Shown here: piece after piece, positions 7,183 through 60,898 of the stretch
Position numbering within the stretch: position 1 is the first letter of the stretch
Layout: each line of letters starts with the position of its first letter
Assembly: GCA_020073245.1 (NCBI GenBank)
Contig: JAIQFQ010000007.1
Coordinates: forward strand, 49,851 to 113,850
Origin: Terriglobia bacterium
GTDB taxonomy: Bacteria; Acidobacteriota; Thermoanaerobaculia; Thermoanaerobaculales; Thermoanaerobaculaceae
Reading direction: 5' to 3'
Length of the DNA stretch: 64,000 nucleotides
The notes under the pieces: generated by a model
The model's database searches: none
Told to the model about the DNA's origin: nothing
The model's input: the letters and a program-made list of their open reading frames with translations, nothing else
Position numbers and translations under genes: made by a program

Positions 7183-7370
7183 TTTCAAAGTTCGAAGGTT
7201 CGACAAAGATGTAAAGGGTCAAACGTCAAAGGTCAAACGGACGGCAGAGACCTCCGATGACCCTCAACCTGCCGGGTCGTGTCTTCCCTTTGACCTCTTC
7301 CCTTTCACCTTTGACCTTTCTAGCCTCGGGGGGAACCTTCGAACCTGTGAACGTGCGAACGTTCGAATGC
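7183..7370. repeat. Nested heptamer inverted repeat
   Basis: Outer arms are degenerate GTTCGAAG units (7183-7206) and GAACCTTCGAAC-like units (7331-7368). Inner arms are 7-bp GGTCAAA units (7213-7240) and their complement (7282-7319, CCCTTTGACC-like). The two families are nested around a loop of about 42 nt. The element fills the space between the MFS start and the stop of the downstream-facing kinase gene. See the finding on the whole family. Confidence 0.8.
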
Positions 7371-7385
7371 CTCCTGCCCCAGCAA

Positions 7386-9956
7386 TCAGCGGCGGGGAGG
7401 CAGCCTGTCGAGCAGCCCGGCGGTGCGCAACGGATCAAGGTCCGGGTCCATGGCGAGGTCCAGGCGGTCGGCGCCGTACTGGTCGCGCGCCCGCAGCAAC
7501 CACTCGTACGCCTGGCGGGAGTCGCCGAGCGCGGCCCAGCCGGAGGCAATGTTGTAGGCGAGGGTGCCGAGTGCAGGGATACCGCCCGCACGCCACAGGT
7601 TCCCGGCCCGATCGAGCGCATCCCGCGCGCCAACGGTGTCGCCGAGACCACCGCACGCTCGTGCGAGGACCCTCAGCGCATCCGGGTCATTGGAGTGCGA
7701 CACGTCCGCCCCGTTGAGCACGGTGCGCGCGTCCGCATAGCGGCCGATGCCCGCCAGGGCTTCCGCCCTCGCTACTGCGAGGTTCGTGTCCGTCGGTTTG
7801 TCCCGCAGCGCTCGTTCGGTCTCGGCCAGGACGGCCTGCCATTGGCGCTGCCGCTCCGTTTCCCAGCGAAGGAGCGACGCCCAGTACTGCGCCGTCTGGT
7901 GAACGACGAGCCGGCTGGTACTCGAGAAATCGAGGTGCTTCCGGATGGCCCGTTGGAGTGCCTCGCGCGCCTTGGTCTGCTCGCCGCGCTGTTGCAGTGC
8001 GAGTGCGGCGTACAGCGGGTACTTGTACCTGGTGGGAAAGCGCTCTTCCCCCTCCGAGGTTGTCCGTAGCACCTCGCTGAGCCTCCCGGCCAGGAGCTGG
8101 CTGAGCGCGAGCTCTTCGCGTGTCGGGCTCCAGTCGGGCCGCCAGTTGGACCGCAGCAGCTTCTCGAACAACGGGATCGCCTCGGCGGGACGATCCTCGA
8201 TCCGGTACGCCTGGGCCGCTCCATAGGTCAGCTCGCCGCTCTCCGGGAAAAGCGCGCGGGCGCGCTCCAACGCTTCGAGGCGACGCTGGCTGTCTTCGGC
8301 AAGCATCGCCGAAACTTCCTCAACCACGACCGCCTCGGTCTCGTCCGGATGGGGAACGAGCCTGCGCGCCGCATCCAGCTCGCCGGCCCACTCGTCGAAG
8401 TGTCCTGTCGCCTTGGCGTTCATCGCGAGGTACAGATGCGAAGGCCAGAAGCTCGGGTCCGCCTCGAGCGCTCGCCGAAACGCCTGCTTGGCCTCCGACA
8501 AACGGGTGCGCGCGGCCAACTGCAACCCATCTCGGAATGCGCGCGCCGCATCGAGCACCTTCGTCCGGCGCGCCAAAAAACCGTGCAGCGGGTCCGAATC
8601 CTCCAGCTCCCGGCAAACCTGCTCGAGTTCCAGCGCCGCAGCGAGGGCGGCCCCGGGTTCGGGCAGCTCGTTCGCACCGCCCGCCCTCCCGATCGAGAGC
8701 TGCTGGACGCCGAGGACCGAGCCACTTTTGGAGTCGAGAATCGTGAACCTCACGGTCGCCTTGCCGACACCGCCGTCGACGACCCCGCGCACGCGGACAT
8801 CGCTGCCGCCCGCTTCGACAGCCTGGAGCGTCTTGCGGGCCGCCACTGCCCTGATCAGTTCCGCGTTCAGCGTCGCGAGCAGGCTGCGCGGGGGCGCTGG
8901 CGAGCCGGCCAGCACCGGCTCCAGTGCCACCCGCAACTGCGGTCCTGCCGCGGCCCGCGGATGTGACGTCAGGCGCCCCCGCACGGCGAGCCAGACCGCG
9001 CCAGCCATCATCACGGCGAGCGCAGCCGCTGCGGCCATGGGCCATCGACGCCGAGGCCGCATGCCTCCGGTCAGCGAGGTCGCCGTCTGGAGCACCGACG
9101 CGGCTTCATCAAGCGTCGGCCGGCGCGAGCGGTTGGTCTGGAGGCACGAGGTCACGAGAGCGCGCACGTTCTCCGGCGTGCCCGAGGGGAAGCTCCCGAG
9201 GTTGGCCTGGCCGGAGATCACCCTGGACATGATGTCCGGGACCGTCGGTCCGTTGAAGGTCCGCGTGCCCGAGAGCATCTCCGCAAGACAGCACCCGAAC
9301 GCCCAGATGTCGCAGCGCTCGTCGCATTCCTCACCCCGTACCTGCTCGGGCGCCATATAGGCGGCGGTCCCGACCACGCCGCCGGAATCGGCAAGCTTGG
9401 CGGTGAGGTCCACGTCCTCCGGCGGCCTGCGTTCGGGACGGAAGCGCGCCAAGCCGAAATCGAGCACCTTTGCCTCGCCGCCGGCGGTGAGCATGATGTT
9501 GCCCGGCTTGAGGTCGCGGTGGACCACGCCGCGGGCGTGGGCCGCCACGAGGCCGCACACCACCTGGCGTGCGATCGCCAACGCGTCATCGAGGGGCACC
9601 GGGCCGTCACGCAGGCGCCGCGAGAGCGATTCGCCCTCGACCAGCTCCATGACGAGGAACCGGACCGCCGTTGTCGGGTCATCGCCGACGGCGCCGTCGG
9701 GGCCGGCATCCGGCATCGCCTCCCCCAGTTCGTAGATCTGCGCCACGTTTGGGTGGTTGAGGGCCGCCAGCGCCCTCGCCTCCCGCTCGAATCGCGCCAC
9801 CCGGTCGGGTTCGGCGGCCATGCTCTCGGGGAGGACCTTGAGCGCCACCTCACGCCCGAGCCGGAGGTCGCGGGCGCGCCAGACCTCGCCCATGCCGCCC
9901 CTGCCGAGGACGGAGACGAGCTGGAAGCGGGAAAGCGTCATTCCAGGACGTAGCAT
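7386..9956 (-). CDS. Ser/Thr protein kinase (Hanks type) with TM segment and TPR region
   Basis: This 856-residue protein carries a kinase domain at about residues 11-275. It has the glycine loop GRGGMGEV (18-25), catalytic Lys40 (EVALK), the catalytic loop [13 protein letters not shown] and MAPEQVRG. One membrane segment follows at about residues 307-327 (WPMAAAAALAVMMAGAVWLA). The external part begins with a beta-rich domain and continues into TPR-like helical repeats with many Ala/Leu/Arg pairs. All catalytic residues are present, so it should be an active PknB-like kinase. Unlike the two paralogues at 18105 and 27401 it lacks a clear TolB-like domain. A TATGAT hexamer lies 9 nt before the ATG. 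Target proteins are unknown. Confidence 0.92.
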   Translation of the reverse strand: MLRPGMTLSRFQLVSVLGRGGMGEVWRARDLRLGREVALKVLPESMAAEPDRVARFEREARALAALNHPNVAQIYELGEAMPDAGPDGAVGDDPTTAVRFLVMELVEGESLSRRLRDGPVPLDDALAIARQVVCGLVAAHARGVVHRDLKPGNIMLTAGGEAKVLDFGLARFRPERRPPEDVDLTAKLADSGGVVGTAAYMAPEQVRGEECDERCDIWAFGCCLAEMLSGTRTFNGPTVPDIMSRVISGQANLGSFPSGTPENVRALVTSCLQTNRSRRPTLDEAASVLQTATSLTGGMRPRRRWPMAAAAALAVMMAGAVWLAVRGRLTSHPRAAAGPQLRVALEPVLAGSPAPPRSLLATLNAELIRAVAARKTLQAVEAGGSDVRVRGVVDGGVGKATVRFTILDSKSGSVLGVQQLSIGRAGGANELPEPGAALAAALELEQVCRELEDSDPLHGFLARRTKVLDAARAFRDGLQLAARTRLSEAKQAFRRALEADPSFWPSHLYLAMNAKATGHFDEWAGELDAARRLVPHPDETEAVVVEEVSAMLAEDSQRRLEALERARALFPESGELTYGAAQAYRIEDRPAEAIPLFEKLLRSNWRPDWSPTREELALSQLLAGRLSEVLRTTSEGEERFPTRYKYPLYAALALQQRGEQTKAREALQRAIRKHLDFSSTSRLVVHQTAQYWASLLRWETERQRQWQAVLAETERALRDKPTDTNLAVARAEALAGIGRYADARTVLNGADVSHSNDPDALRVLARACGGLGDTVGARDALDRAGNLWRAGGIPALGTLAYNIASGWAALGDSRQAYEWLLRARDQYGADRLDLAMDPDLDPLRTAGLLDRLPPRR

Positions 9957-9965
9957 GACTCATGA

Positions 9966-9971: not shown

Positions 9972-9996
9972 GTGCGGCAGTGACCGAGACAGAAGA

Positions 9997-10112
9997 GAGA
10001 AGGTAAAAGGGAAAAGGGCAAACGTCAAATGAAGACCAGGGTTTGCCTTCGGGTTCCGCGCCTACGTCGTCGTGCGTCCTCCCTTTGACCTTTCACCTCT
10101 CACCTTTGACCT
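9997..10112. repeat. Heptamer inverted repeat
   Basis: The left arm (9997-10034) consists of AAAAGGG/GTCAAAT-type 7-bp units. The right arm (10077-10112) is the complementary CCTTTGACC/TTTCACC type. The loop is about 42 nt. It lies just after the rmuC stop. Confidence 0.75.
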
Positions 10113-10127: not shown

Positions 10128-11351
10128 CTACGTCTCGGGCGCCAGAATCGGTGCCTCCGCGGCGGGCAGCTCAGGCGGTGCCTCCTGGCCGGTTACCGAC
10201 AGCAGCCGGTCACCGACCTTGCCGGCGAGCTTCTCGGCCTCCTCGTACTTCCCGGAGGCGGACTGAAGGTGGCGGCCGACGAGCCGGAACGCCTCGCCGA
10301 ACTTGCCGAACTCGGTCTGCAGGCGTCCCAGCTCCGCCAGGATTTCGCGCGCTCGCGCCTCCACCTGCATTCCCTTGAGGCCGGTCACGATCGTCGAGAG
10401 ATAGGCGTAGAACGAATTGGGGGACACCGGCACGACCCGCCGCGAGGTCGCGTACGCGAGCAGCGAGGCGCCCTCGCCAAGGCTGTCGTCCTTGATGATC
10501 ACCTCGTAGTAGATGTTCTCGGCCGGAATGAACATGAGCGCGAACTCGAACGTCCCTTCGCCGGGCCGGATGTACTTGTCGGCGATCTCGTCGATCCGTC
10601 CCTTGACCGACTTCTCGAACTCCTTGCGGGCCACCTTGCGCGCGACGTCGTCCTCGGCCGCGACCATGCGCTGGAACGACTCGAGCGGGAACTTCGCGTC
10701 CACCGGCACCAGGTGCCCGCGCAGCTTGATCACTGCGTCGACCGTTTGCCCGTCGCGGAACCGGTATTGCGTGTCCCAGAAACCCGGCGGCAACACCTGC
10801 CGGAAGAACTCCTCGAGCGAAGCCTCACCCATGTTGCCGCGGAGCTTGGGCGCCTTGAGGATCCCCTGCAGCTCCTCGATCTCCCGCCCGAGCGCCTCCA
10901 TTCGCGTCGCCATCTCGGCGACATGACCGAGCTGTCCCTTGAGCTCGCCGAATACCTTGGTGGCGCCCTCGAACTGTGAGCCGAGGTTCTTCTGCGACTC
11001 CGCCAGCTGGGTATTGACCGCCCCGACAAGTCCCTGGAGCTGCTCGGCGAGGCTGCGACGCGCCTGTTCCAGACCGGAGCGCAGCGTCTCGCCTGTGGTC
11101 ACCTGGCCGCCCTGCACCTGCTGCCCGAACTCGCCCAGGCGCCGGTTGAAGTCGGCCACCACCGAAGTCAGCTGGCCGCCTACCTGCCCGAGAGTGTCCC
11201 GCTGCGACTGCGCGAGCGCGAGCGACACCCGGCCCAGCTCCTCGCGAAGCGCCAGCTCCTGGCGCCCGGAGCGCACGAGCTGCACGAAGGCGAGGATCAC
11301 CAGCACACCTGCCAACGCCCCCACCACGACAAGCCCGGTCGTCATCGCCAA
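10128..11351 (-). CDS. rmuC: DNA recombination protein RmuC homologue
   Basis: This 407-residue protein has an N-terminal membrane segment (about residues 5-24), a long coiled-coil-like region (about 30-170) and a C-terminal RmuC nuclease-like domain. The signature of that domain is LRGNMGEASLEEFFRQVLPP, then VDAVIKL and VPVDAKFPLESFQRM, where the D-x-K type motif lies. RmuC limits recombination between inverted or short repeats in E. coli. That is noteworthy in a genome rich in inverted repeats, but the link is only contextual. The start overlaps the end of plsC by 10 bp, so the two are co-transcribed. Confidence 0.92.
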   Translation of the reverse strand: MAMTTGLVVVGALAGVLVILAFVQLVRSGRQELALREELGRVSLALAQSQRDTLGQVGGQLTSVVADFNRRLGEFGQQVQGGQVTTGETLRSGLEQARRSLAEQLQGLVGAVNTQLAESQKNLGSQFEGATKVFGELKGQLGHVAEMATRMEALGREIEELQGILKAPKLRGNMGEASLEEFFRQVLPPGFWDTQYRFRDGQTVDAVIKLRGHLVPVDAKFPLESFQRMVAAEDDVARKVARKEFEKSVKGRIDEIADKYIRPGEGTFEFALMFIPAENIYYEVIIKDDSLGEGASLLAYATSRRVVPVSPNSFYAYLSTIVTGLKGMQVEARAREILAELGRLQTEFGKFGEAFRLVGRHLQSASGKYEEAEKLAGKVGDRLLSVTGQEAPPELPAAEAPILAPET

Positions 11352-12139
11352 TCCCCCGTCGCGGCTCCCCGCGGGGCGCCGTCCCGCAACTCGCGCACCC
11401 GCGCTTGAGCCGCTGCCGCCAGGGTACGCCTGTCATGGTGCGGTGGGGCGATCGGGTCGCCGAAACGCACCTCGGCGAGCACGCGCCGGTGTGACGCGAG
11501 GCGCAAAGCGTGGGTGATGAAGTTCTCGCCGTGGAACCAGCCGATCACGTCGAGGTTGGCTTCCGTCACCGGTTCACCGTCGATCTCGAGATATCGCACC
11601 GCCGCGGGCACCACCGGCGCGGCGGCGTCCACCGCGGCCTGAAACAGCCCACTCCGGAAAGGCAGCAGCGAGCCAGCGCCGGCGGAGGTCCCCTCCGGGA
11701 AACCGAGCACGGTGGCGCCGGAGGCGAGCGCAGCCGTTACCTGCGCGATGCCGCGCGCCCCCGCACGGGCACGTTGCCTGTCGATGAAGATCGTAGCGCC
11801 CGCAGCCGCCAGCCCCCCGAACACCGGCCAGCGCCGCATGTCGTGGCGTGCCGCGAAGACGACAGGGAACAGCCCGCCGATCGTGAGCACGTCGGCGTAC
11901 CCGTAGTGGTTCGCCACGACCAGCGACCCCGGCGGCGGCAGCGCGCCAACCGTTCGGACCCGGATCCCTAGGCACCGCTGGCCAACCCGCCCCCAGCGGG
12001 CGTTGTGCGGAGAGTTGCGCTTCCAGCGCCGTGGGAACCGACAGAAGACCGCGCCGATCGCGCGCGCCACCACGAGCCACGACCCGACGACGAACGCGCC
12101 CATCCGGGCGATCGCCCGCATTCGGCCAGTCACGGTCAT
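11342..12139 (-). CDS. plsC: 1-acyl-sn-glycerol-3-phosphate acyltransferase (PlsC-like)
   Basis: This 265-residue membrane-associated acyltransferase has an HX4D motif (ANHYGYADV), a substrate motif VFGGLAAAGATIFIDR and a PEGTSAG block. These are the classic PlsC/LPLAT signatures for lysophosphatidic acid acylation in phospholipid synthesis. The ATG at 12139 (MTVTGRM) is preferred. An upstream in-frame extension to 12271 would translate an intergenic heptamer repeat (HEQRTMDHGLSW) and has no ribosome binding site. Its 3' end overlaps rmuC. Substrate specificity is inferred from the family only. Confidence 0.87.
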   Translation of the reverse strand: MTVTGRMRAIARMGAFVVGSWLVVARAIGAVFCRFPRRWKRNSPHNARWGRVGQRCLGIRVRTVGALPPPGSLVVANHYGYADVLTIGGLFPVVFAARHDMRRWPVFGGLAAAGATIFIDRQRARAGARGIAQVTAALASGATVLGFPEGTSAGAGSLLPFRSGLFQAAVDAAAPVVPAAVRYLEIDGEPVTEANLDVIGWFHGENFITHALRLASHRRVLAEVRFGDPIAPPHHDRRTLAAAAQARVRELRDGAPRGAATGDWR

Positions 12140-12150
12140 GGCAGTCTTGT

Positions 12151-12281
12151 ACCACGAAAGACCGTGGTCCATGGTCCGTTGCTCGTGGTTCGCCGACCGA
12201 ACGAAAAGCGACCGATTCATCTCTGGGGTCCTACCAGGGGTTCCCTCGGCGCACCATGACCCACCACCCACGAACCACGGG
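12151..12281. repeat. Heptamer inverted repeat, GTGGTCC family
   Basis: Left arm 12151-12192 carries CGTGGTCCATGGTCC-like units; right arm 12252-12281 carries the complement (ACCATGACCC, CGAACCACGG). The element fills the divergent gap between plsC and the DUF1015 gene. Confidence 0.65.
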
Positions 12282-12358: not shown

Positions 12359-13597
12359 ATGTCTGACGTCCGCCCGTTCCGGGCCTTGCGGCCGCGTCCC
12401 GATCTCGCAGCGCGAGTCGCCGCGCCCCCATACGACGTGATCAACTCCGAGGAAGCCCGCGCGATGGCCAAGGGGAACGAGATTTCGTTCCTCCATATCA
12501 ACAAGCCCGAGATCGACCTCTCCCCCGATGTCAACCTCTACGACGACAGGGTTTACGCGACAGGCGTGAAGAACCTCCGTTCCTTCATGGCCAAGGGCGT
12601 GCTCGTGCGCGAGGCCGAGCCGCGGTTCTACGTCTACCAGCAGCGAATGGGCGACCACGTCCAGGCGGGGGTTGTCGGCGCGGCGAGCTGCCAGGAGTAT
12701 GCCGACGGGCTGATCAAGCGGCACGAGTTCACCCGCAAGGACAAGGAGGACGACCGCACGCGGCACACGCACGAACTCAACGCGAACGCCGGTCCGGTGT
12801 TCCTCACTTACCGCCAGCGCGCCGAGATCGACCGGATCGTGGCCGGCGTCCGGAAGGGGCAGCCGCTGTACGACTTCGTCGCGCCCGACGGGATCGGGCA
12901 CACGGTTTGGACCGTTCCTCTCGAGCAGACGTCGGCGCTCCAGAAGGCGCTTAGTGCGGTCCCGGCGCTCTACGTCGCCGACGGGCACCACCGAGCCGCA
13001 TCGGCGGCCCGAGTCGGTCTCGAGCGGAAGGCGTCGAACCGGCACCACCGGGGCGACGAGCCTTACAACTACTTCCTTGCAGTGCTCTTCCCGCACGATC
13101 AGCTGTGCATCATGGACTACAACCGCGTCGTAAAGGACCTTAACGGCATCAAGGAGGATCAGTTCCTCGCGAAGGTCGGGGAGAAGTTCGCCGTGACGAC
13201 GACGACCGAGCCGCACCCCGCGGCGCCGCACCGTTTTGGGATGTACCTCGGTAGGACGTGGTATCGCCTCGAGGCCAAAGCGGGCTCATTCCCATCCGAA
13301 GATCCCGTGCGCTCTCTCGATGCGGCAATCCTGCAGGAGAACCTGCTTTCCCCCGTCCTCGGCATCGCCGACCCGCGCACGGACAAACGCATCGACTTCG
13401 TCGGAGGGATCCGGGGGCTGGGCGAGCTCGAGAAGCGGGTCAGGGAGGGGTGGGCGGCGGCCTTCGCGCTCTTCCCCACGTCGCTCGACCAGCTCATGTC
13501 GGTGGCGGATGCCGGGCTTGTGATGCCGCCCAAGTCAACGTGGTTCGAGCCGAAGCTGCGCTCGGGCCTGCTCGTCCGCACTTTGGACACGTGGTAG
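12359..13597 (+). CDS. DUF1015 family protein, serine-pathway associated
   Basis: This 412-residue soluble protein is of the DUF1015 family, recognised from the N-terminal PFRALRPRPDLAARVAAPPYD (partly quoted), the HTHELN region and the conserved ALYVADGHHRAASAARV motif. The start at 12359 has a GGAGG site 8 nt upstream. It is followed by serA and serC on the same strand, an association seen widely in bacteria that lack an obvious serB. The biochemical role is not something I can state. The DGHHR motif resembles the active-site motif of ParB/sulfiredoxin-fold free-serine kinases (SerK, SbnI), so a role in serine/phosphoserine chemistry is a reasonable inference. Confidence 0.85.
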   Translation: MSDVRPFRALRPRPDLAARVAAPPYDVINSEEARAMAKGNEISFLHINKPEIDLSPDVNLYDDRVYATGVKNLRSFMAKGVLVREAEPRFYVYQQRMGDHVQAGVVGAASCQEYADGLIKRHEFTRKDKEDDRTRHTHELNANAGPVFLTYRQRAEIDRIVAGVRKGQPLYDFVAPDGIGHTVWTVPLEQTSALQKALSAVPALYVADGHHRAASAARVGLERKASNRHHRGDEPYNYFLAVLFPHDQLCIMDYNRVVKDLNGIKEDQFLAKVGEKFAVTTTTEPHPAAPHRFGMYLGRTWYRLEAKAGSFPSEDPVRSLDAAILQENLLSPVLGIADPRTDKRIDFVGGIRGLGELEKRVREGWAAAFALFPTSLDQLMSVADAGLVMPPKSTWFEPKLRSGLLVRTLDTW

Positions 13598-13632
13598 GCG
13601 GGGCCGCTGGCCCCAGGAAAAGGGAGGTCGCA

Positions 13633-14511
13633 ATGCTGATCCTGATCTGTGACGCCTTCGACAAGTCGCTCCCGGAGAGGCTCAAGAAGTTCGCGGAGGT
13701 CACCGAAGACATCGCCCGGCTCCCGGAGGCCGAGGTTGCGCTCGTGCGCTCCAAAACGAAGTGCACCGCGGAGTGGATCGCCGGCGCTCCCAGGCTCAAA
13801 CTCATCATCCGCGGCGGCGTGGGCCTCGACAACGTGGACGCCAAGGCCGCCAAGGAGCGCGGCATCGAGGTGCGTAACACGCCTGCGGCGTCCTCGGTCG
13901 CGGTCGCCGAGCTCGCGTTCGGCCTCATGCTCGCCGTGCCCAACAAGCTCATCGAGGCGCACAACGCCATGAAGCTCGACGGGAAGTTCCTCAAGAAGGA
14001 GCTCAAGCGCACGGAGCTCTTCCAGAAGACACTGGGCCTGGTCGGGATCGGTCGGATCGCTGGCGAGGTGGCCAAGCGGGCCGCCGCGTTCGGCATGCGG
14101 GTGCTCGCGTACGACCCGTACGTCAAACACTCCGACGTCGCGATCCTGGTGCCGACCCTCAAGGAGCTTTTCTCCAAGGCCGATTACATCTCCCTGCACG
14201 TCCCGCTCAGCGAGGACACCAAGGGGATGATCAACAAGGCCGCGATCGCCGAGATGAAGGACGGCGTCGTGATCGTCAACACGGGGCGCGGCAAGTGCAT
14301 CGTCGAGGAGGACCTCGCCGAGGCGCTCAAGTCGGGCAAGGTGGCAGCGTACGCGACCGACGTGTGGTTCTCGGACCCGCCGGACCCGTCCTCCCCTCTT
14401 CTCGCCGCACCCAACGTGATCATGACACCGCACATCGGGGCCAGCTCCAAGGAGAACCTCCTTCGGATCGGCAGCGAGGTGGTGGAGCTGCTCGAGAAGT
14501 GGGGTAAGTGA
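13633..14511 (+). CDS. serA: D-3-phosphoglycerate dehydrogenase, short form without ACT domain
   Basis: This 292-residue NAD-dependent D-2-hydroxyacid dehydrogenase carries out the first step of serine synthesis. It has IIRGGVGLDNVD, the Rossmann motif GLVGIGRIAGEVA, NTGRGKCIVEEDL with the catalytic Arg region, and the catalytic His in MTPHIGASS. The start at 13633 (MLILICDAF) has a GGGAGGT site 4 nt upstream; a longer reading frame upstream only overlaps DUF1015. It lacks the C-terminal ACT and intervening domains that give serine feedback inhibition in longer SerA forms. Placement between DUF1015 and serC fits PGDH better than another hydroxyacid dehydrogenase. Confidence 0.9.
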   Translation: MLILICDAFDKSLPERLKKFAEVTEDIARLPEAEVALVRSKTKCTAEWIAGAPRLKLIIRGGVGLDNVDAKAAKERGIEVRNTPAASSVAVAELAFGLMLAVPNKLIEAHNAMKLDGKFLKKELKRTELFQKTLGLVGIGRIAGEVAKRAAAFGMRVLAYDPYVKHSDVAILVPTLKELFSKADYISLHVPLSEDTKGMINKAAIAEMKDGVVIVNTGRGKCIVEEDLAEALKSGKVAAYATDVWFSDPPDPSSPLLAAPNVIMTPHIGASSKENLLRIGSEVVELLEKWGK

Positions 14512-14669
14512 CCGTGGTTCCTGGTCCGTGGTCCGTGGTCCGTTGCGACCCCCGACGCGAGCCGGACGGTCCGGCGCGTTGGCCCTCAGTCCCTTCGATT
14601 CCCCCGGAATGCCAGAATTGGCCGTTGGGAGCTTTCAACTCTCAACTCTTAACTCTTCACTCTGCACTG
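14511..14669. repeat. Heptamer repeats between serA and serC
   Basis: Positions 14511-14547 carry tandem GTCCGTG units. Positions 14632-14669 carry a second series of TCAACTC/TTAACTC/TTCACTC units. The two arms here are of different families, so the long hairpin is not obvious. The spacer separates two genes that otherwise look like one operon. Confidence 0.65.
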
Positions 14670-14692
14670 TTGACCTCACCAAGGAGGCTTCG

Positions 14693-15790
14693 ATGAGCCA
14701 CAGAGTCATCAATTTCTACGCCGGTCCCGCCGCGTTGCCGTTGCCGGCCCTGGAACGGGCCCAGGCGGAGCTGCTCGACTTCGAGAAGACCGGCATGTCG
14801 GTCATGGAGATCTCCCACCGCGCCAAGGAGTACGACGCGGTGCACACGGAGGCGATCGCGCTTGTCAAGGAGCTCCTGGCCGTCCCGGACAACTTCAAGA
14901 TCCTGCTGCTGCAGGGCGGCGGCAACCTGCAGTTCGCGATGCTGCCGATGAACATACTGCACTCGGGGAAGAAGGCGGACTACATCATCACGGGCCAGTG
15001 GGCCAAGAAGGCGTACAAGGAAGCAAGGATCGTAGCCGGCGACAACGCGCGGGTCATCGCGACCACGGAGAGCGAGAAGTTCTGCCGGCTGCCGCGCCCC
15101 GACGAGATCAAGGTCAACGCCGACGCAGCGTACGTGCACTTCTGCTCCAACAACACCATCTTCGGCACGCAGTGGAAGACGTTCCCCCAGACGGGTGGCA
15201 TCCCGCTCGCGTGCGACATGTCCTCCGACTTCATGTGGCGCCCGTTCGACGTCAAGCCGTTCGGCTTGATCTACGCCGGCGCCCAGAAGAACCTGGGGCC
15301 GTCGGGCCTGGTGGTCGCCATCATCCGCGACGACTTCCTGGCGGCCTGCTCCGACAAGCTTCCCAGCATGCTCCAGTACAAGATCCACGCCGAGAAGAAC
15401 TCGCTCTACAACACCCCTCCGTGCTTCTCGATCTACATCCTGCGCAACGTGCTGGCGTACAACAAGTCGATCGGCGGGCTCGCGGCGATCCAGAAGAACA
15501 ACCTGACCAAGGGCGAGCTGCTCTACGGCTGCATCGACAGGTACCCCCAGTTCTACAAGGGCCACGTCACGGTCAAGGAAGACCGCTCGCTGATGAACGT
15601 CGACTTCTTCCTGCCAAACGACGAGGTGACGGACGCCTTCGTCAAGGAAGGCAAGGCGAACGGGATGGTCGGGCTCAAGGGGTACCGGGACCTGGGCGGC
15701 ATCCGCGTCTCGATGTACAACGCGGTGACCGTGGACAACATCAAGACCCTGGTCGCGTTCATGGAGGCGTTCGCGAAGAAGCACGCGTAG
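14693..15790 (+). CDS. serC: Phosphoserine aminotransferase
   Basis: This 365-residue PLP enzyme of fold type I (class V) makes phosphoserine from phosphohydroxypyruvate and glutamate. Signatures are INFYAGPAALPLPAL, MEISHRAKEYDAVH, LLLQGGGNLQFAMLPMN and the PLP-Lys region YAGAQKNLGPSG. The start at 14693 (MSHRVINF) has an AAGGAGG site 6 nt upstream; a longer frame would translate the heptamer repeat. The length is that of SerC. With serA and DUF1015 it supplies the serine pathway. A phosphoserine phosphatase gene is not in the window. Confidence 0.95.
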   Translation: MSHRVINFYAGPAALPLPALERAQAELLDFEKTGMSVMEISHRAKEYDAVHTEAIALVKELLAVPDNFKILLLQGGGNLQFAMLPMNILHSGKKADYIITGQWAKKAYKEARIVAGDNARVIATTESEKFCRLPRPDEIKVNADAAYVHFCSNNTIFGTQWKTFPQTGGIPLACDMSSDFMWRPFDVKPFGLIYAGAQKNLGPSGLVVAIIRDDFLAACSDKLPSMLQYKIHAEKNSLYNTPPCFSIYILRNVLAYNKSIGGLAAIQKNNLTKGELLYGCIDRYPQFYKGHVTVKEDRSLMNVDFFLPNDEVTDAFVKEGKANGMVGLKGYRDLGGIRVSMYNAVTVDNIKTLVAFMEAFAKKHA

Positions 15791-15791: not shown

Positions 15792-16048
15792 GACCGTGGA
15801 CCGTGGTCAGTGGACCGTGGTCCGGTGAGACAACAACAGAGACTTGATTGGGCGGGGCGGGTGCCCCGCCCTCGCGTTTGAGGGGAAGCGTGATCAGGGG
15901 CTCGTGTTCAGTGGTCCGCAAAGAACAGAACCAACGGACCGACAGCGCGCTCCAATGCCAGACAACGTCCAAGTCTGGATCGGCCGCAACCCAGTGAAGT
16001 CAGGCGTTTGTGCGGACCACGGTCCACAGGCCATGGACCACGGACCCC
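15792..16048. repeat. Large heptamer inverted repeat, GTGGACC family
   Basis: Left arm 15792-15826 carries GACCGTGGTCAGTGG-like 7-bp units. Right arm 16012-16048 carries the complement (GGACCACGGTCCACAGG). The arms enclose about 185 nt that includes a GC-rich terminator hairpin. Confidence 0.75.
15850..15871 (+). terminator. Terminator-like hairpin after serC
   Basis: GGGCGGGGC and GCCCCGCCC form a perfect 9-bp stem around a GGGT loop about 60 bp after the serC stop. No strong T-tract follows, so termination strength is uncertain. Confidence 0.55.
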
Positions 16049-37340: not shown

Positions 37341-37513
37341 AGAGGTTAAAGGTCAAAAGGAAAAGGGAAAAGGTGAAAAGGAAAACTTCAAACGAAGGGC
37401 ACGCCCAAGGCGCCCAGTTCGCCCGCTGTGCCCTGCCTTCCCCTTTACCTTTGACGTTTGCCCTTTTCCCCTTCTATCGGAACCTGCGAACCTTTCGAAC
37501 CTTTGAGCCTTCG
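37270..37513. repeat. Nested heptamer inverted repeat overlapping a gene end
   Basis: Outer arms of GTTCGAAG units (37270-37325, 37478-37513) enclose inner arms of AAAAGGG/GGTCAAA units (37340-37394, 37435-37474) and a 40-nt loop. The loop itself has GGGCAC/GTGCCC ends. The first arm is translated as the C-terminus of the aminotransferase. Confidence 0.8.
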
Positions 37514-43059: not shown

Positions 43060-43190
43060 AGGAAAAGGGAAGAGGAAAAAGGTGAAAGGTAAAACGTCAA
43101 ATGGAGAGAGAGAAAGGAAGGACGCAAGCGCCAGCCATAAGAAGTCTCGGCCTTACGTTTGACGTTTGACCTTTTCCCTTTGCCCTATTC
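43060..43190. repeat. Heptamer inverted repeat
   Basis: Left arm 43060-43104 (AAAAGGG, AAAACGTCAAAT units), right arm 43157-43190 (GTTTGACGTTTGACC, CCCTTTG). The right arm covers the last codons of the BON protein gene. Confidence 0.75.
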
Positions 43191-43847
43191 CTTGACCGTC
43201 AGTTGATCGCGGACTTCCTTGACTCCGGAGGTGGATCGGACGATCCCGGTCGCAAGCTTCCGGCGGTCCGCGTCCGGAACAGTGCCCTTGAGGGTGACAA
43301 CACCCCTCGCGGCATCCACCTCGACCTCGAATGCCACCTTGCCCAGTTCCGAAAGAAGGCGGACCTTGACCCTTGCCTCGAGGAGCACATCGGCGAACCC
43401 GCGCTCCACCTTGCCGAGAATGTGCGCGACCGGCGGTTCCAAGGCCTGCCCGTTGGCCGCCAGCGTGACGCTGCTGTGAACCGTACGGACTCCGTCAACA
43501 GAGGCCGCCACCCGCTCCGCCAGCTGTACGTTGGCGCTCCGCTCGACCTGGCCGGAGAGCTCGATGTTCCCGCCGTGAGCCTCGATCGTCACACGCAGCC
43601 CGTCCTCCTTGAGGCGCTCCAGCAACGCCACGCGAACCCGGGTCATGAGCAGCGCCTCGCCGACGCTGGCCGAAACCTGTCCCCAGGCGTGATCGATCGA
43701 CCCGCCGGCGCGCGCGGCGGGGCCTTGCGCCGGCGTCGGGGTCGTCGCGGGTTCAGCCACCGCTACCATCGGCACGGCCAAGAAACAAAGGACGATGGCC
43801 AATACCAGTTTGCGCCCACGTGTCGCTGTGATGGCTTTCGGGACCAT
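43185..43847 (-). CDS. Periplasmic protein with two BON domains
   Basis: This 220-residue protein has a signal peptide (LVLAIVLCFLAVPMVAVAEP) and two BON domains: about 65-130 (TRVRVALLERLKEDGLRVTI, VRTVHSSVTL) and about 150-217 (EARVKVRLLSEL, GVVTLKGTVPDADRRKLA, VKEVRDQLTV). BON domains bind membranes or phospholipids, as in OsmY. It starts 2 bp after the upstream VWA gene stop, with GGAGG in the end of that gene, so they are co-translated. Confidence 0.85.
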   Translation of the reverse strand: MVPKAITATRGRKLVLAIVLCFLAVPMVAVAEPATTPTPAQGPAARAGGSIDHAWGQVSASVGEALLMTRVRVALLERLKEDGLRVTIEAHGGNIELSGQVERSANVQLAERVAASVDGVRTVHSSVTLAANGQALEPPVAHILGKVERGFADVLLEARVKVRLLSELGKVAFEVEVDAARGVVTLKGTVPDADRRKLATGIVRSTSGVKEVRDQLTVKE

Positions 43848-47447: not shown

Positions 47448-47544
47448 CGGAAGAGGGTAGAGGGTAGACGGAAGACGGAAGACCGGTAGCGCGTGGCGCC
47501 CCCCTTCAGGTCGTCCCTCTCCGGTCTTCCTTCTTCCCTTTTCC
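47448..47544. repeat. Heptamer inverted repeat, AGAGGGT/GACGGAA family
   Basis: Left arm 47448-47484 carries AGAGGGT and GACGGAA 7-bp units. Right arm 47516-47544 is CCGGTCTTCCTTCTTCCC. The loop is about 31 nt. It lies between the divergent VWA and aminotransferase genes. Confidence 0.65.
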
Positions 47545-47616: not shown

Positions 47617-48834
47617 GTGGCTTTCGACTACATCTACTCGGAGCGGGCGGCCGGCCTGCGCCCTTCGCCTATCCGCGAGCTGTTCAAGCTGATCCAGCGC
47701 CCCGGCATGATCTCCTTCGCGGGAGGCCTTCCCGACCCGGCGATCTTCCCAGTGGACGAGTTCGCGGCGTGCAGCGACATCCTGCGCAGCAAGGGCCTGG
47801 AGGCGCTCCAGTACGGCGCCACGGAGGGTTACAGGCCGCTGGTTCTGGAGATCGCCGGGCGGATGGAGCCCCTTCTCGGGCGCCCCGTGACCCCCGAGGA
47901 GATCGTGATCTCGTCGGGTTCGCAGCAGGCGATGGACATGCTTTCGCGGGTCTTGATCGACCCCGGCGACGTGATCGTGGCTGAGGCGCCAACCTATCCG
48001 GGCGCCCTCCACACGTTCCGCGCCGTGGGCGCCCGTTTCGCCCTCGTCCCGTGCGACCACGACGGCATGCAGACCGAGCGGCTCGCGGAGACCATCGAGC
48101 GCTCTCGGCTCACGACCGGGCGTCTCCCCAAGCTCATCTACACCATCGTCAACTTTTCTAACCCCTCGGGCGCCTGCCTGGCCGAGGCGCGGCGGCGCCA
48201 GCTGGCCGAGATCGCGGCTCGCTACGGCATCCCGGTGCTGGAGGACGACCCCTACGGCGAGCTGCGCTACAGCGGCGAGCGGATCCCGACGCTGTTCTCG
48301 ATGGCCCCCGGCGGCGTGCTCTACGCCTCCTCGTTCTCCAAGGTCCTGGCTCCGGGCGTTCGGGTGGCGTGGGCGGTCGGCGACGCCGAGCTCATCCGCG
48401 GGATGGTCATCGCCAAGCAAGGGATGGACCTCTGCACCTCCGTGGTCGCGCAGGTTCTGGTCACGGAGTACTGCCGGCGCGGCCACCTCGACGGTCACCT
48501 TGCAAAGATCCGCGCCCACTATGCCACGAAGGCCGCGGCCATGGGGGCCGCTCTGCGCGAGCATCTGCCAGCCGACCAGGTCAGCTTCTCGGAGCCCACG
48601 GGAGGCTTCTTCTTCTGGGTCCGACTGGCCGGAGACGGCCAGGCGCTGTTCCGCCGTGGCGTGGACGAAGGCGTCGCCTTCCTCCCGGGGGAAACGTGCT
48701 ACCCCGAGGCGAAGGAGACCGTCGGCGAACCCCAGGACGGCCGGCCGTTCGCGCGCCTCTGTTTCACCTTCGCGCAGCCCGACGAGATCGTGGAAGGGAC
48801 CAAGCGCCTCGCCGCCGCGCTGAGGCGTTCCTGA
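47617..48834 (+). CDS. Fold-I PLP-dependent aminotransferase (LysN-like), second copy
   Basis: The GTG at 47617 after GAGGTG gives 405 residues (VAFDYIYSERAAG). Motifs: RPGMISFAGGLPDPAIFPVD, LQYGATEGYRPL, SSGSQQAMDMLSRVL, NFSNPSGACL, EDDPYGELRYSG and PLP-Lys in YASSFSKVLAPGVRVAW. It is a relative of the 36069 enzyme but without a repeat-derived tail. Substrate unknown; aminoadipate, aromatic or branched-chain amino acids are all possible for this clade. Confidence 0.9.
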   Translation: MAFDYIYSERAAGLRPSPIRELFKLIQRPGMISFAGGLPDPAIFPVDEFAACSDILRSKGLEALQYGATEGYRPLVLEIAGRMEPLLGRPVTPEEIVISSGSQQAMDMLSRVLIDPGDVIVAEAPTYPGALHTFRAVGARFALVPCDHDGMQTERLAETIERSRLTTGRLPKLIYTIVNFSNPSGACLAEARRRQLAEIAARYGIPVLEDDPYGELRYSGERIPTLFSMAPGGVLYASSFSKVLAPGVRVAWAVGDAELIRGMVIAKQGMDLCTSVVAQVLVTEYCRRGHLDGHLAKIRAHYATKAAAMGAALREHLPADQVSFSEPTGGFFFWVRLAGDGQALFRRGVDEGVAFLPGETCYPEAKETVGEPQDGRPFARLCFTFAQPDEIVEGTKRLAAALRRS

Positions 48835-48860: not shown

Positions 48861-48976
48861 CGGAAAAAGGTCAAACGGAAAAGGGAAAGCGTCAAAGGAA
48901 CCACAGCAGCTCGCCTCCAACAGAGGGCGGCGCAGTCGTGTCTTCCCTTTGACCTTTCGCCTTTTCCCTCTTCCTG
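48861..48976. repeat. Heptamer inverted repeat between convergent genes
   Basis: Left arm 48861-48900 (GGTCAAACGG, AAAAGGG units), right arm 48941-48976 (CCCTTTGACC, CGCCTTTTCCC). It shares tcgtgtcttccctttgacct with the element at 7183-7370, which shows a common origin. It lies between the aminotransferase and priA stops. Confidence 0.8.
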
Positions 48977-48978
48977 CT

Positions 48979-51402
48979 TCACACCGTGCTCTGCGGATCC
49001 ACGTCAATGATCCGGCGCACGCTCCGCGGGAGCGGGAGAGCGGTGACCACCGCCAGCGCAGTCCTCAACGGTGGCCGCGTCGGCGCAGTCAAGAGCAGCT
49101 GCACGCGCCACCGCCCTCGGAGGCGCTCGAGCGGCGCCGGAGCCGGCCCGATGACGCGGAGCCCGGCCGGCGCAGGGTCAAGCGCGCGCGCCGCCGCCTT
49201 CGCCGCCGCGGCAGCGGTGCTCTCGCTGACCGCCTCGTACCGAACGAGCGCCAGGCGAGTCGTAGGGGGATAGCGAAACGCCTTTCGAAAACGCAGTTCT
49301 TCCTCGGCAAATCCACGGAGATCGTGCACGAGGGCCGCGCGGACAGCGTGATGGTCGGGGTGGAAGGTCTGGATCACGACCAGTCCGGGCCGCTCGCCGC
49401 GGCCGGAGCGGCCCGCCACCTGCGTCAGCATCTGGAACGTCCGCTCGGCGCCGCGAAAATCGGGAAACCCGAGGAGGTTGTCCGCGTTGACGACACCCGT
49501 CAGCGTGACGGCCGGAAAATGATGCCCCTTCGAGACCATTTGCGTCCCCACGAGAACCCGGCTCTCCCCTGCGGCGAACCGCTCGAGCGTCGCGAGAAGC
49601 TGCGCGGGCGAGCGCGCGGTATCCCGGTCCAGGATGTCCACAACCGCCGCGGGGTGGAGCTTCCGCACCAGCGAGGCGATCTTCTCGGTTCCGGCGCCGA
49701 CGTGGTCGAGCACCTCGCCGCCGCAGCGCGGGCACGCCTGCGGGATGTCGCGGTGAAAGCCGCAGTAGTGGCACACCAGAGAGGCCGTGCGGCGATGCAC
49801 CGTGAGCGGGATCGAGCAGTCGCGGCACGCGGCCTGGTGTCCGCACTCCCGGCACAGCAGCACCGGAGCCCAGCCGCGCCGGTTCACAAGCAGGATTGTC
49901 TGTTCCCCGCGGGCCAGCGTCTCGGCGAGAGCCTCGCGGAGCCGCCGGGATAGGAAACGCTGGCCGTGCTCTCCAGGCTCGGGCGGCTCGCCTTTCAGGT
50001 CGACGACCTCCACGGCGGGGAGACGGCCGCTGGCAACGCGCTCCGGCAGATCGAGCACCTCCACCCTGCCCTGCTCAGCCAGCGCGAGCACTTCGAGCGA
50101 GGGAGTGGCGGAGGCCAGGATGACCGGGATCCGAAGGCGCTGGCCAAGGGTGAGCGCCAGATCCCGGGCGTTGTAGCGCGGCTCCTCCTCCTGCTTGTAC
50201 GACGTGTCCTGCTCCTCGTCCACCACCACGACCCCAAGGCGCGCCAGGGGTGCCCACAGGGCTGACCGCGGCCCGGCGACCACGTCAACCTGGCCGCGCC
50301 GGGCGCGCTCCCAGGCGGCGAGCCGCTCGCCTTCCGCCATCGACGAGTGCAGCACGGCGACTCGTCCGGAGAAGCTCCTGGCGAGGTGCCCCGCGAGAGC
50401 AGGTGTCAAGGCGATCTCGGGGACGAGGATCACCGCCTGCAGCCCCCTATCGACCGCAGCGCGCGCGACGCGCAAGTACACCTCGGTCTTGCCCGAGCCC
50501 GTAACGCCGAGCAGCAGAAATGCCTTGAATTCCCCACCACCCAGAGCCTTCGAGAGCGTCTCGACCGCTTGGTGCTGATGCGCCGTCAGCGTTTCCGGAA
50601 CGGGACCCGGGGCGAGCTCCCAACGCCGCACCTCCCGCTGGCGGGCCTGCCGAAACCGCCTGACGACACCCTTGTGGACAAGGGCGTCGACGACGCCCGA
50701 GGAACATCGGCACGCCGCCACGAGCTCGCCCTCCAGCACCGGTCGGCCGGTCTCGACGAGCCATGCCGCGGCCCGTGCCTGGGCCGGCGCGGCTCCCACC
50801 AGGCGCGCCCGCTCCTCGGGTGCCATTTCACACGCCACGACTGCCGAGACTGTCGCTCCGGCGGGCCCGCTCGCGCTGCGCTCGACAACCTTGAGTGCGT
50901 GCTTCTCGGCGAGAGCCGGAAGCAGCTCGTCGAGCTCAGGCTTGGACCAGCCTTCCGCTCGGAGACGGGCAACGGATATCCGTCGCGCCTCCAGCACCCG
51001 CTCGATCAGGCGCCGCGCGGCGGGCTCGGCGCCGGCGAGGAGCTCGCTCGCTCGAGCGCCCGCCTGCACGATCGGCGGCGGAACGCGCAACAGTGCGCCC
51101 GGGATAGCCGTGCGGACGACGGTGCCGACCGGCGCCGCGTAATACTCGGCGACGAACCGGATCAGCTCCAGCACGTGCGGCGGAAGCAGCGGCTCGGGGT
51201 CGAGCACCTCCTCGACCGGAAGCACCCGATCCGCCGGACAACCCGGGTCCTCGACAACCTCCACAACCACCCCTACGCGGCTCTGGCCGCGGAGGCGGAC
51301 CTTCACACGCGTTCCCGGGACGACGAGGTCGACGAGGTGTTCCGGGATCCGGTATGAGAGGGCTTCGGGAAGCGCGGTCGGCAGGGCTGTCCGGGCGAAC
51401 AC
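48979..51402 (-). CDS. priA: Primosomal protein N' (PriA helicase)
   Basis: From the GTG at 51402 the protein is 807 residues, in the PriA range. It has an N-terminal DNA-binding region, a Walker A GVTGSGKTEVYLRVA, a DEEQD-type box (VVVDEEQDTSYKQEEEPRYN) and ATPSLE. The zinc-binding cysteine cluster follows (LCRECGHQAACRDCSIPLTV, CHYCG, CPRCGGE), then VLVGTQMVSKGHHFPAVTL and RSGRGERPG. It restarts stalled replication forks. A longer frame to 51696 would cross the divergent gene. No Shine-Dalgarno is visible; a TATCAT -10 sits 8 nt upstream, so it is probably leaderless. Confidence 0.94.
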   Translation of the reverse strand: MFARTALPTALPEALSYRIPEHLVDLVVPGTRVKVRLRGQSRVGVVVEVVEDPGCPADRVLPVEEVLDPEPLLPPHVLELIRFVAEYYAAPVGTVVRTAIPGALLRVPPPIVQAGARASELLAGAEPAARRLIERVLEARRISVARLRAEGWSKPELDELLPALAEKHALKVVERSASGPAGATVSAVVACEMAPEERARLVGAAPAQARAAAWLVETGRPVLEGELVAACRCSSGVVDALVHKGVVRRFRQARQREVRRWELAPGPVPETLTAHQHQAVETLSKALGGGEFKAFLLLGVTGSGKTEVYLRVARAAVDRGLQAVILVPEIALTPALAGHLARSFSGRVAVLHSSMAEGERLAAWERARRGQVDVVAGPRSALWAPLARLGVVVVDEEQDTSYKQEEEPRYNARDLALTLGQRLRIPVILASATPSLEVLALAEQGRVEVLDLPERVASGRLPAVEVVDLKGEPPEPGEHGQRFLSRRLREALAETLARGEQTILLVNRRGWAPVLLCRECGHQAACRDCSIPLTVHRRTASLVCHYCGFHRDIPQACPRCGGEVLDHVGAGTEKIASLVRKLHPAAVVDILDRDTARSPAQLLATLERFAAGESRVLVGTQMVSKGHHFPAVTLTGVVNADNLLGFPDFRGAERTFQMLTQVAGRSGRGERPGLVVIQTFHPDHHAVRAALVHDLRGFAEEELRFRKAFRYPPTTRLALVRYEAVSESTAAAAAKAAARALDPAPAGLRVIGPAPAPLERLRGRWRVQLLLTAPTRPPLRTALAVVTALPLPRSVRRIIDVDPQSTV

Positions 51403-51410
51403 CAGCCGCG

Positions 51411-51420
51411 ATGATACACT
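51411..51420. promoter_or_regulatory. Overlapping bidirectional -10 elements
   Basis: In the 24-bp gap between the priA GTG (51402, minus) and the small gene GTG (51427, plus), TGATACACT gives an extended -10 on the plus strand 6 nt before GTG. The same bases read TATCAT on the minus strand, 8 nt before the priA GTG. Both mRNAs would be leaderless. Confidence 0.5.
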
Positions 51421-51426
51421 CGCCGC

Positions 51427-51699
51427 GTGACCGGGCGGGAGGAGATCGAGCGCTGGCGTGGCGTCCTGACACGTCTGCGGCGCGGTCCGGCTCCACGCGG
51501 CGAGGAGTACGACCTGTGCCGAGAGGTGCTCGCAGCCGCGCCCGCAACCATGCACGGCCGCCAGGCCGCCCGGAGGCTCCTCGAAGGTGCGATGGCCGAC
51601 GCCGGGATCAGCATCGCTGACGCCCAGGACGTGATGGGTTTGCTCAAGGCCGTAGCCCGGGGCGACGTTGACCTGGAGCACCTGCTCGAGCCGCAATGA
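51427..51699 (+). CDS. Small protein of unknown function
   Basis: This 90-residue, helix-rich, charged protein (IERWRGVLTRLRRG, GRQAARRLLEGAMADAG, VMGLLKAVARGDVDLEHLL) is not one I recognise. It starts at GTG 51427 without a ribosome binding site, probably from a leaderless message, and overlaps the next gene by 4 bp (ATGA), so the two are coupled. Confidence 0.65.
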   Translation: MTGREEIERWRGVLTRLRRGPAPRGEEYDLCREVLAAAPATMHGRQAARRLLEGAMADAGISIADAQDVMGLLKAVARGDVDLEHLLEPQ

Positions 51700-54398: not shown

Positions 54399-54460
54399 AG
54401 AGTCGAAAGCTCTCTTTCGACTTATGACTTTCGACCTCCGACTATTGACCGTTGGCCGTC
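54399..54460. repeat. Heptamer repeat with terminator-like hairpin
   Basis: AGTCGAAAG (54401-54409) and CTTTCGACT (54414-54422) form a perfect 9-bp stem around CTCT. Further degenerate TTTCGAC/TATTGAC 7-bp units follow. It lies between convergent TetR and pepT genes and may terminate both. Confidence 0.6.
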
Positions 54461-58133: not shown

Positions 58134-58146
58134 GAGGACCAGGGCC

Positions 58147-59820: not shown

Positions 59821-60862
59821 CGCCGCGGTGAGCGCCGCCAAGCTCGTGATCGTCGCCGTGGGCTTGCTCACGGCCGTGCCCGTGATGGTATGGGTCGAGC
59901 GCCGGGGCGCCGCGTTCATTCAGGATCGCCTCGGCCCGAACCGGGTCGGGCCTTTCGGCCTCCTCCAGCCGGTGATCGACGCGATCAAGCTCGTCTTCAA
60001 GGAGGACCTTACGCCGGCCAACGTCAACCGGGGCCTCTATCTCCTGGCCCCGATGGTCTCCTTCTTCGTGGCCATGGTGACGTTCATCGTGATCCCCTTC
60101 GGCGCCGGGAAGGACATCACCGTGTTCGGGGTGCCGCTCGGCGGTCTGAGCGTCGCCCCGGACCTCGGCGTCGGGGTGCTGTTTCTCCTCGCGATCGGGT
60201 CGCTGGGCGTCTACGGGATCGTCCTGGCGGGCTGGTCATCCAACAACAAGTACTCGCTGCTCGGCGGTCTCCGGTCCTCCGCGCAGCTCATCTCGTACGA
60301 GCTGCCGATGGCACTGGCCGTGCTCGGCGTCCTGCTCTCGACGGGCTCTTTGCGTCTCGACGACGTCGTCACCCGTCAGGCCGAGCACCTCTGGCTCAAC
60401 TTCATCCCCCAGTGGAACCTCATCCCGCAGGCCATCGGATTCGTCGTGTTCGTCACCGCCGCCTTCGCGGAGACCAACCGGCTGCCGTTCGACCTCGCCG
60501 AAGCGGAGACGGAGCTCGTCGCCGGCTATCACCTCGAGTACTCGTCGATGAAGTTCGCCGCGTTCTTCATGAGCGAGTACATCAACATGACGACGGCCTC
60601 CGCGCTGATCGTGACCCTGTTCTGCGGCGGGTGGACATTCCCCGGAATGCAGCATTTCTCCGGTTGGTGGCTGCTGGTCGCCTCCGTGGGCGCTTTCTTC
60701 GTGAAGCTGGCCTTTTTCCTCTGGCTCTTCGTATGGGTGCGCTGGACTCTGCCTCGCTTCCGCTACGACCAGTTGATGCGCCTAGGTTGGAAGGGGCTGC
60801 TGCCGTTGGCGACGCTCAACCTCGTGTGGGTGGGCGTGGCGATGGCGATGAGGTGGATCTGA
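59810..60862 (+). CDS. nuoH: NADH-quinone oxidoreductase subunit H
   Basis: This 350-residue membrane subunit has about eight TM segments and the signatures [57 protein letters not shown] and [12 protein letters not shown]. These line the quinone tunnel and couple electron transfer to proton pumping. Start overlaps nuoG. Downstream, where nuoI usually lies, there is a repeat-bearing spacer of 115 bp. Confidence 0.97.
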
Positions 60863-60863
60863 T

Positions 60864-60898
60864 GAAGACAGGGCGCAGGGCACAGGGCACAGGGCACC
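60864..60898 (+). repeat. AGGGCAC heptamer repeat in the nuoH-nuoJ gap
   Basis: Tandem 7-bp GGGCACA units sit directly after the nuoH stop. A GGCTC/GAGCC hairpin follows. This gap occupies the place normally held by nuoI. Confidence 0.65.

Follow-up and report, generated by a model that had tools for sequence, protein, structure and literature searches.

Why should many intergenic gaps of one bacterial genome carry tandem arrays of 7-nucleotide (nt) units, written in several different words, behind the stop codons of genes? The question is raised by the window analysed here, a stretch of 64 000 nt from a Terriglobia bacterium (contig JAIQFQ010000007.1, positions 49 851 to 113 850), in which a first-pass annotation had described degenerate heptamers at eleven gaps. 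Comparison within this genome and with its relatives shows a period of seven with many words, placement after stop codons, a strand polarity set relative to the gene and, at several gaps, a kept site with an exchanged word.

The genome (designated G000; 4.38 Mb in 89 contigs) was surveyed over 1.19 Mb, divided into a first sample, its first 794 kb (373 gaps, 84 kb of intergenic DNA), and a second one taken further along, with 176 gaps in 398 kb. The self-similarity of each intergenic gap of at least 40 bp was scored at every lag without naming any motif, and a lag-7 segment reaching a fixed score of at least 10 was counted as an array. Period-7 arrays are present in 58 of the 549 gaps, as 75 segments. 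The first sample contains 55 lag-7 segments against 0.6 in dinucleotide shuffles and the second 20 against 0.0, well beyond chance; about 0.7 Mb of coding DNA from the first sample contains eight. The multiples of seven, lags 14 and 21, give 41 and 14 segments in the first sample. Lag 8 gives seven segments in that sample (GGTTCGAA octamers) and three in the second, lags 4–6 and 9–13 give none to two each, and lags 16 and 18 up to four each. The arrays are not confined to the window: TTTGACCTTTGACC, allowing one mismatch, has 57 matches in the genome against one for the reversed control and, by scaling, the whole genome would have about two hundred gaps with an array.

There are six heptamer families in this genome, bearing out the earlier description of several arm families: GGTCAAA, GGAAGAG/GGTAGAC (which grades into the GGTCAAA family), GAGTTGA, GTGGTCC, CAGGGCA and GAAAGTC. 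One octamer family, AAGGTTCG, shares the architecture of the heptamer families, and some elements are concentric, with octamer arms outermost and heptamer arms within. An inverted second arm was accepted in 33 of 57 array gaps (29/41 in the first sample, where one of 42 gaps, longer than 1.2 kb and mostly masked N, was dropped, and 4/16 in the second), and the inverted-repeat score exceeds that of all eight shuffles of the gap in 33/41 and 7/16 gaps, respectively. About six arrays in ten are thus two-armed by the acceptance rule, which is lenient in places; it admits the nuoH gap (see below) although the second arm there is not of period 7.

The arrays lie at gene 3′ ends, as the first-pass annotation had proposed. 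They are present in 36 of 329 codirectional gaps, 17 of 92 convergent gaps and 5 of 128 divergent gaps, so that divergent gaps are depleted relative to gaps containing a 3′ end (5/128 versus 53/421, P = 0.005). Two-armed elements in codirectional gaps of the first sample start at a median of 4.5 nt from the stop codon and end 49 nt before the next start; paired elements are closer to the stop than to the start in 13/14 codirectional gaps of the first sample and 3/4 of the second. Among arrays starting at most 15 nt after a stop codon, 29 of 30 are G-rich on the coding strand (21/21 in the first sample and 8/9 in the second). As a control, 3′ sequence without arrays, taken at comparable distances, was G-rich in 185 cases and C-rich in 144, with 34 even; these counts, like those in relatives below, cover gaps of up to 1.2 kb. 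Convergent gaps follow the rule at either end, so the polarity appears to be set by the gene and not by the replication fork.

The behaviour of the site and the word can be followed most clearly between nuoH and nuoJ (the names nuoF, G, H, J and K are based on Pfam matches). The closest named relatives of NuoH are labelled Thermoanaerobaculaceae (best 92% identity) and Acidobacteriota, which makes an acidobacterial host very likely. An array begins 1–7 nt after the nuoH stop in 10 of the 16 family genomes with the gene, at the score of at least 7 used for this gap; G002 and G005 are lost if a score of 10 is required. In G007 about two units remain, and five genomes have no array; the comparison is made without the sole match of G016, which is 49% identical and a probable paralogue. 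There are at least five clearly different words:

ACAGGGC, in G000, G001, G002 and G005
GGGTACC/GGGCACC, a near variant of ACAGGGC, in G003
ACAGCTC, with one ACAGGGC unit still inside, in G004
AGGCAAG, in G006
TGACAGT, in G008
AGTCAAG/AGTCGAG, in G010 and G015

The mixed array of G004 is, judged from its units, a possible intermediate of word exchange. The element is two-armed in G004, G006, G008, G010 and G015, whereas no second arm of period 7 is seen in the other five. The inverted element of G008 (L159, L209) is tandemly duplicated: the loop and right arm are identical in the two copies and the left arms differ. Ten genomes from another family of the order have no array after nuoH, and there, by eye, the next start overlaps or lies within about 20 nt.

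The gap between serA and serC (named by us from Pfam matches, to 2-hydroxyacid dehydrogenase for serA and to class-V aminotransferase for serC) has a GTGGTCC array abutting the stop in G000, G001, G005 and G008; it is absent at the stop in G003, G004, G006, G007 and G010. This gap is only 47 nt long in G001 and 37 nt in G005, with the array between the stop codon and the ribosome-binding site. Downstream of serC, a GGGGTCC/GTGGTCC-type array is found in 7 of 16 genomes and is followed in these by a GC-rich hairpin (by eye); G002, whose contig ends inside the gene, is left out of this count, and G006 is counted as having no array though its gap is partly masked N. In a wider survey of 28 gaps of this genome, giving 145 comparisons with relatives, an array in G000 is matched by one in the relative in 16 of 35 comparisons, and where the G000 gap is array-free the relative carries one in 2 of 110; these comparisons have genomes and gaps in common and are not independent, and by distinct gap the figures are 5/8 and 2/20. 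At several gaps, place and period are kept and the word differs.

Single words can be common in one genome. G008 carries TGACAGT/ACTGTCA at no fewer than three gaps, nuoH–nuoJ, serA–serC (as a second arm) and the gap at 54399 of the window, where the words of G000 are ACAGGGC, AACTCTT and TTTCGAC. Units of ACTGTCA are present in G008 at the 12151 gap as well. In counts that include overlapping matches within one array, three-fold ACAGTNN has 152 matches in G008, 13 in G000 and 115 in G030, which belongs to another family; each of the seven remaining congeners has none or one. Three-fold AGAGTNN occurs 106 times in G000, 152 in G008, 52 in G005 and 255 in G015, with none in G001, and four-fold AGAGTNN is found in 13 of 297 genomes across the phylum, up to 243 times. 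The reversed control strings (four-fold TGAGANN, and CCAGTTTCCAGTTT with up to one mismatch) themselves have about 90–545 matches per genome in G100 and G161 of the same phylum and in G027–G029 and G034 of the same order, which indicates that these genomes are rich in other heptamer words. The pattern matches are patchy through the order and phylum, and GGTCAAA inverted arrays occur in two records named outside the phylum, L033:1178–1251 (Mizugakiibacter sediminis) and L031:33–115 (uncultured Prevotellaceae RUG571). Mizugakiibacter is a gammaproteobacterium; its pair begins about 9 nt past the called stop and, as here, has its G-rich strand as the coding strand. The term 'lineage-specific' first applied to these elements is therefore too narrow.

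Within the unit, a motif-free test showed that deviations from the array consensus concentrate in about two of the seven columns in two of three genomes. Simulations as extreme were obtained in 0 of 2000 for G000 (45 arrays), 1 of 2000 for G008 (15 arrays) and 943 of 2000 for G015 (seven arrays), in which the variation is not concentrated in columns. Typical unit forms are AGAGTNN, ACAGTNN and GG[AT]AGA[GCA]. Differences between paired arms show no clear RNA wobble preference: G.T and A.C number 31 and 32 in 14 elements, 9 and 3 in four more, and 40 and 35 overall. A first test of co-evolution between partner arms (0/5000) was discarded, as the alignment of the arms had itself decided where they were cut; when the cuts were made without regard to pairing, partners are not significantly more alike than same-family cross arms (857 of 10 000 permutations). 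A G-quadruplex was rejected as a general basis of the arrays, since most segments cannot form one alone: a G3 quadruplex is possible in 8 of 75 segments, and 30 of 75 have no GGG or CCC. Stop codons in all frames are an improbable reason for the period of seven, several words having (by eye) no stop codon.

In the window, 45 genes were called with a gene caller written for the analysis, and Rfam gave no match at the gathering score. The elements are the following; strand is given where one was assigned.

7183–7367: nested element between genes 5896–7146 (−) and 7386–9941 (−); GAAGGTTC-type octamer arms outside, about 7183–7204 and 7333–7367, and GGTCAAA-type heptamer arms inside, 7211–7239 and 7282–7320
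9987–10112: GGTCAAA/GGTAAAA-type inverted pair, arms 9987–10029 and 10082–10112, downstream of an RmuC-domain gene, 10128–11345 (−)
12160–12279: weak GTGGTCC-type inverted pair; the left arm, about 12160–12193, overlaps the called 5′ end of gene 11342–12220 (−), and the right arm, 12259–12279, scores 9.0
14512–14543 (+): single GTGGTCC array abutting the stop of serA, 13591–14511 (+)
14632–14674 (−): AACTCTT array upstream of serC, which starts at 14693 (+)
15792–16046: GTGGTCC/GTGGACC inverted pair after the serC stop, arms 15792–15824 and 16013–16046, 188 nt apart, with a GC-rich hairpin between them (by eye)
37275–37510: nested element; octamer arms 37275–37325 and about 37480–37510, and inner GGTCAAA/GGAAAAG heptamer arms 37343–37385 and 37438–37473
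43061–43191: GGTAAAA/GGTCAAA-type inverted pair, arms 43061–43101 and 43155–43191, at the stop of a BON-domain gene, 43185–43847 (−)
47449–47544: GGAAGAC/GGTAGAG inverted pair, arms 47449–47483 and 47521–47544, in a divergent gap
48861–48980: GGTCAAA/GGAAAAG inverted pair, left arm about 48861–48899 and right arm 48946–48980, between convergent genes 47617–48834 (+) and 48979–51696 (−, PriA domains)
54399–54450: short TTTCGAC-type element between convergent genes, with a lag-14 segment at 54414–54450
60868–60897 (+): ACAGGGC array, 5 nt after the stop of nuoH (59828–60862); nuoJ is at 60978–61466

Repetitive units of 7 or 8 nt are thus present at all eleven places first described, and nine pass the fixed score; the 12151 place reaches 9.0 and the 54399 place has a lag-14 segment only. 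Long inverted arms, 34–188 nt apart, were recovered at 7221/7299, 15794/16013, 37292/37492, 37359/37444, 43068/43158 and 47463/47521, in keeping with the arms around loops reported earlier. This part of the description does not extend to the 14511 array, for which no same-family partner arm was found, and is marginal for the 60864 array, which has no period-7 partner and whose best partner scores 12.0 against a shuffle maximum of 10.5. The nesting of one family in another was recovered at both concentric elements. The 20-bp stretch reported as common to the 7183 and 48861 elements is exact at 7277 and 48936 and has a third copy on the same contig outside the window (C37:45018), with no further copy in the 1.19 Mb sampled. 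The octamer array at 37275–37340 lies inside the called C-terminal end of an aminotransferase open reading frame (ORF; 36069–37340, +, stop at 37340), as if the repeat had extended into the coding sequence or made it longer.

Another dispersed repeat, about 150–200 bp long and containing ccgccgttgggcctatcgcaaggcgc and similar sequence, adjoins GTGGTCC heptamers in longer gaps and looks like a separate element. It is found at these sites:

G000, C37:42553–42883
G000, C63:86102–86584
G000, C63:290830–291210
G000, C63:325432–325784
G008 (L189), after serC

On C63, a long masked (N) run at about 164000–170000, beside ribosomal RNA-like sequence (by eye), ends with a GGGAAGACGG-type left arm and a TCTTCC-type right arm.

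What would keep a site while its word changes? We favour, tentatively and at slightly less than an even chance, a heptamer satellite that renews itself and exchanges words through 7-nt copying slippage and copying between arrays. By these processes arrays would grow, shrink and change word, and an array would be confined to the untranslated tail of the messenger RNA (mRNA) by coding sequence at one end and by promoters or ribosome-binding sites at the other. Strand switching at a hairpin would produce the inverted arm. Word exchange could spread because some words have four or five bases of the unit in common, on which a strand that has slipped or switched could anneal again. The G-rich coding strand suggests a coupling to transcription, for example through RNA–DNA hybrids formed by G-rich RNA after the ribosomes have left, and such coupling in a ribosome-free stretch would explain a polarity set by the gene. 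A satellite of this kind would account for a step of seven that is indifferent to sequence, for sites that outlast their words and for the dominance of one word in a genome. It is supported by the excess of lag-7 segments whatever the word, by the polarity of stop-proximal arrays, by the conserved place with exchanged word at nuoH–nuoJ and in the survey of orthologous gaps, and by the dominant word of G008, the tandem duplication in its nuoH–nuoJ gap and the lack of a clear wobble preference. The history of the arrays is consistent with both the slippage and the inversion first suggested for them.

Several observations weigh against the satellite. The concentration of variation in two columns is not predicted by plain slippage, and a binding site with a spacer would predict it. 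The similarity of partner arms is non-significant, so that strand switching within one hairpin is not directly seen. When polarity is measured simply as G minus C, relatives follow it less strictly, at 44 of 55 stop-proximal arrays in four smaller samples. G015, with four of eight arrays G-rich, and the g15 genomes are real exceptions; of the seven such arrays in G008, two are scored as C-rich, and both are ACAGT arrays that have this word on the coding strand. Persistence in the same gap across genera can also be read as selection. A further reading, possible but rather unlikely, is that an activity encoded by the genome imposes its own heptamer, with five bases fixed and two free, on fixed sites of the coding strand just after stop codons. 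Such an activity would either write 7-nt units from a template or read them under selection. If so, the word could be exchanged throughout a genome while site, period and polarity stay, and the arrays would amount to a sequence-agnostic post-transcriptional tag used from acidobacteria to Xanthomonas and cyanobacteria.

Of the explanations that place the arrays under selection or in the hands of another element, the best supported, on the evidence of the units, would be a word-specific protein. In this view a protein with several subunits or several domains would bind along the array at a row of sites, in the mRNA tail or in single-stranded DNA, touching about five bases and passing over two, and the word would co-evolve with the predicted protein. 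The nearly fixed five and free two columns in two of three genomes, the coding-strand polarity, the conserved places, the presence of one word at several G008 gaps and the similar published forms GGGANTN in Xanthomonas (PMC4692102) and NNTGAGT in Nostoc (PMC4476775) all point this way. The number of words is its weak point, as six families within one genome would need several readers, and we regard it as doubtful. Unlikely, in our estimate, is that the structure alone is selected, with a hairpin after the stop shielding the upstream mRNA from 3′ exonucleases or slowing the last ribosome. Such an effect near stop codons is known for the repetitive extragenic palindromic (REP) elements of Escherichia coli. 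The closeness of paired elements to the stop, the inverted-repeat scores above all shuffles and the nine G.T to three A.C mismatches of the second, small sample agree with it. The absence overall of a G.T excess on the transcribed strand speaks against it, as do the 24 of 57 array gaps without an accepted paired arm, which include the serA–serC array common to three relatives.

A role as bidirectional terminators, intrinsic or Rho-dependent, between genes, part of the initial interpretation, is now highly improbable. It draws on the depletion of divergent gaps, on the C-richness of the distal arm in each direction and on the codirectional gaps, where canonical terminator-like sites occur in 0 of 23 gaps with an array and 23 of 192 without. 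Yet arrays lie between adjacent codirectional genes at nuoH–nuoJ and serA–serC, and the array after serC stands upstream of a separate GC hairpin common to relatives (by eye). Convergent gaps have canonical sites more often when an array is present (5/13 versus 7/55 without), and the two gap types pooled show no exclusion (5/36 versus 30/247, P = 0.79); canonical hairpin-plus-T sites are themselves barely above shuffles, 12 versus 8.3 in convergent and 23 versus 15.3 in codirectional gaps. We give the least credence to a mobile element inserted at these places, whether a REP or REP doublet forming a hairpin (REPIN) moved by a Y1 transposase or a miniature inverted-repeat transposable element. 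The copies are dispersed, three elements of one contig have the 20-bp stretch in common, and the genome has one match to Y1_Tnp (PF01797), the one candidate protein family looked for. The word nevertheless differs at orthologous sites, and G027 and G034 (88 and 79% complete), rich in another heptamer word, have no Y1_Tnp match; among the relatives, these matches do not track the arrays.

Among known systems, REPs and REPINs (PMC3733652, PMC2817692), which are said to be moved by REP-associated tyrosine (Y1) transposases and to be kept palindromes of 20–40 nt with a GTAG/CGTC tag, resemble the present elements as dispersed palindromes between genes. They differ in that the word here is not kept, that the arms are heptamer arrays of several words and that Y1 matches do not follow the arrays. 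The closest likeness is to the class described by Rehm et al. in 2015 (PMC4692102), who report an excess of heptamers and G-rich inverted heptamers near ORFs with a strand placement rule, the words being GGGAATC (also in the form GGGANTN, with inverted pairs described) in Xanthomonas and GGGGA(C/T)T in Nostoc. Two Xanthomonas species have them in mostly the same gaps with different sequences; their function is described there as still to be elucidated, the ideas offered being a slippage step of polymerase size and G-quadruplexes. Like that class, the arrays studied here are tandem with period 7, over-represented between genes and under-represented between divergent genes, and lie near the ORF with the G-rich strand as the coding strand downstream, a rule that is weaker in the small samples from relatives. 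Unlike it, in which one quadruplex-forming word per genome was studied, they comprise six families and an octamer, mostly non-quadruplex; families are nested concentrically, and orthologous gaps have one word replaced by another. In the P6b stem of the Nostoc trnL intron, both hairpin arms consist, as here, of heptamers with free positions (TDNGATT or NNTGAGT), and one word repeatedly replaces the other at the same site; that case concerns one intron locus in a folded RNA, the present one many places after stop codons (PMC4476775). The TAACTGA repeats of Beggiatoaceae and cyanobacteria are also mostly intergenic tandem heptamers, but of one word, as direct repeats with one inverted case of 170, and mostly upstream of the start codon in the genome described (PMC4679880).

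The class is already known; among the results listed by searches of open-licence papers, no report of such arrays for acidobacteria was found. Nested palindromic heptamers had seemed unfamiliar at first; inverted heptamer pairs and stems are in fact published (PMC4692102, PMC4476775), and it is the concentric nesting of different families for which no description was found. As far as seen, what is new is the many non-quadruplex words in one genome under one placement rule, together with this nesting, the replacement of words, through a possible intermediate, in orthologous gaps, and the presence within gene clusters of arrays that follow the stop codon and precede the ribosome-binding site. 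The many words under one rule, and the relatives that exchange the word at a kept site, make the rule (period, place and strand) separable from the sequence. They also argue against a quadruplex as the general cause, and make it a testable question why the step is 7 nt and why the strands are polar.

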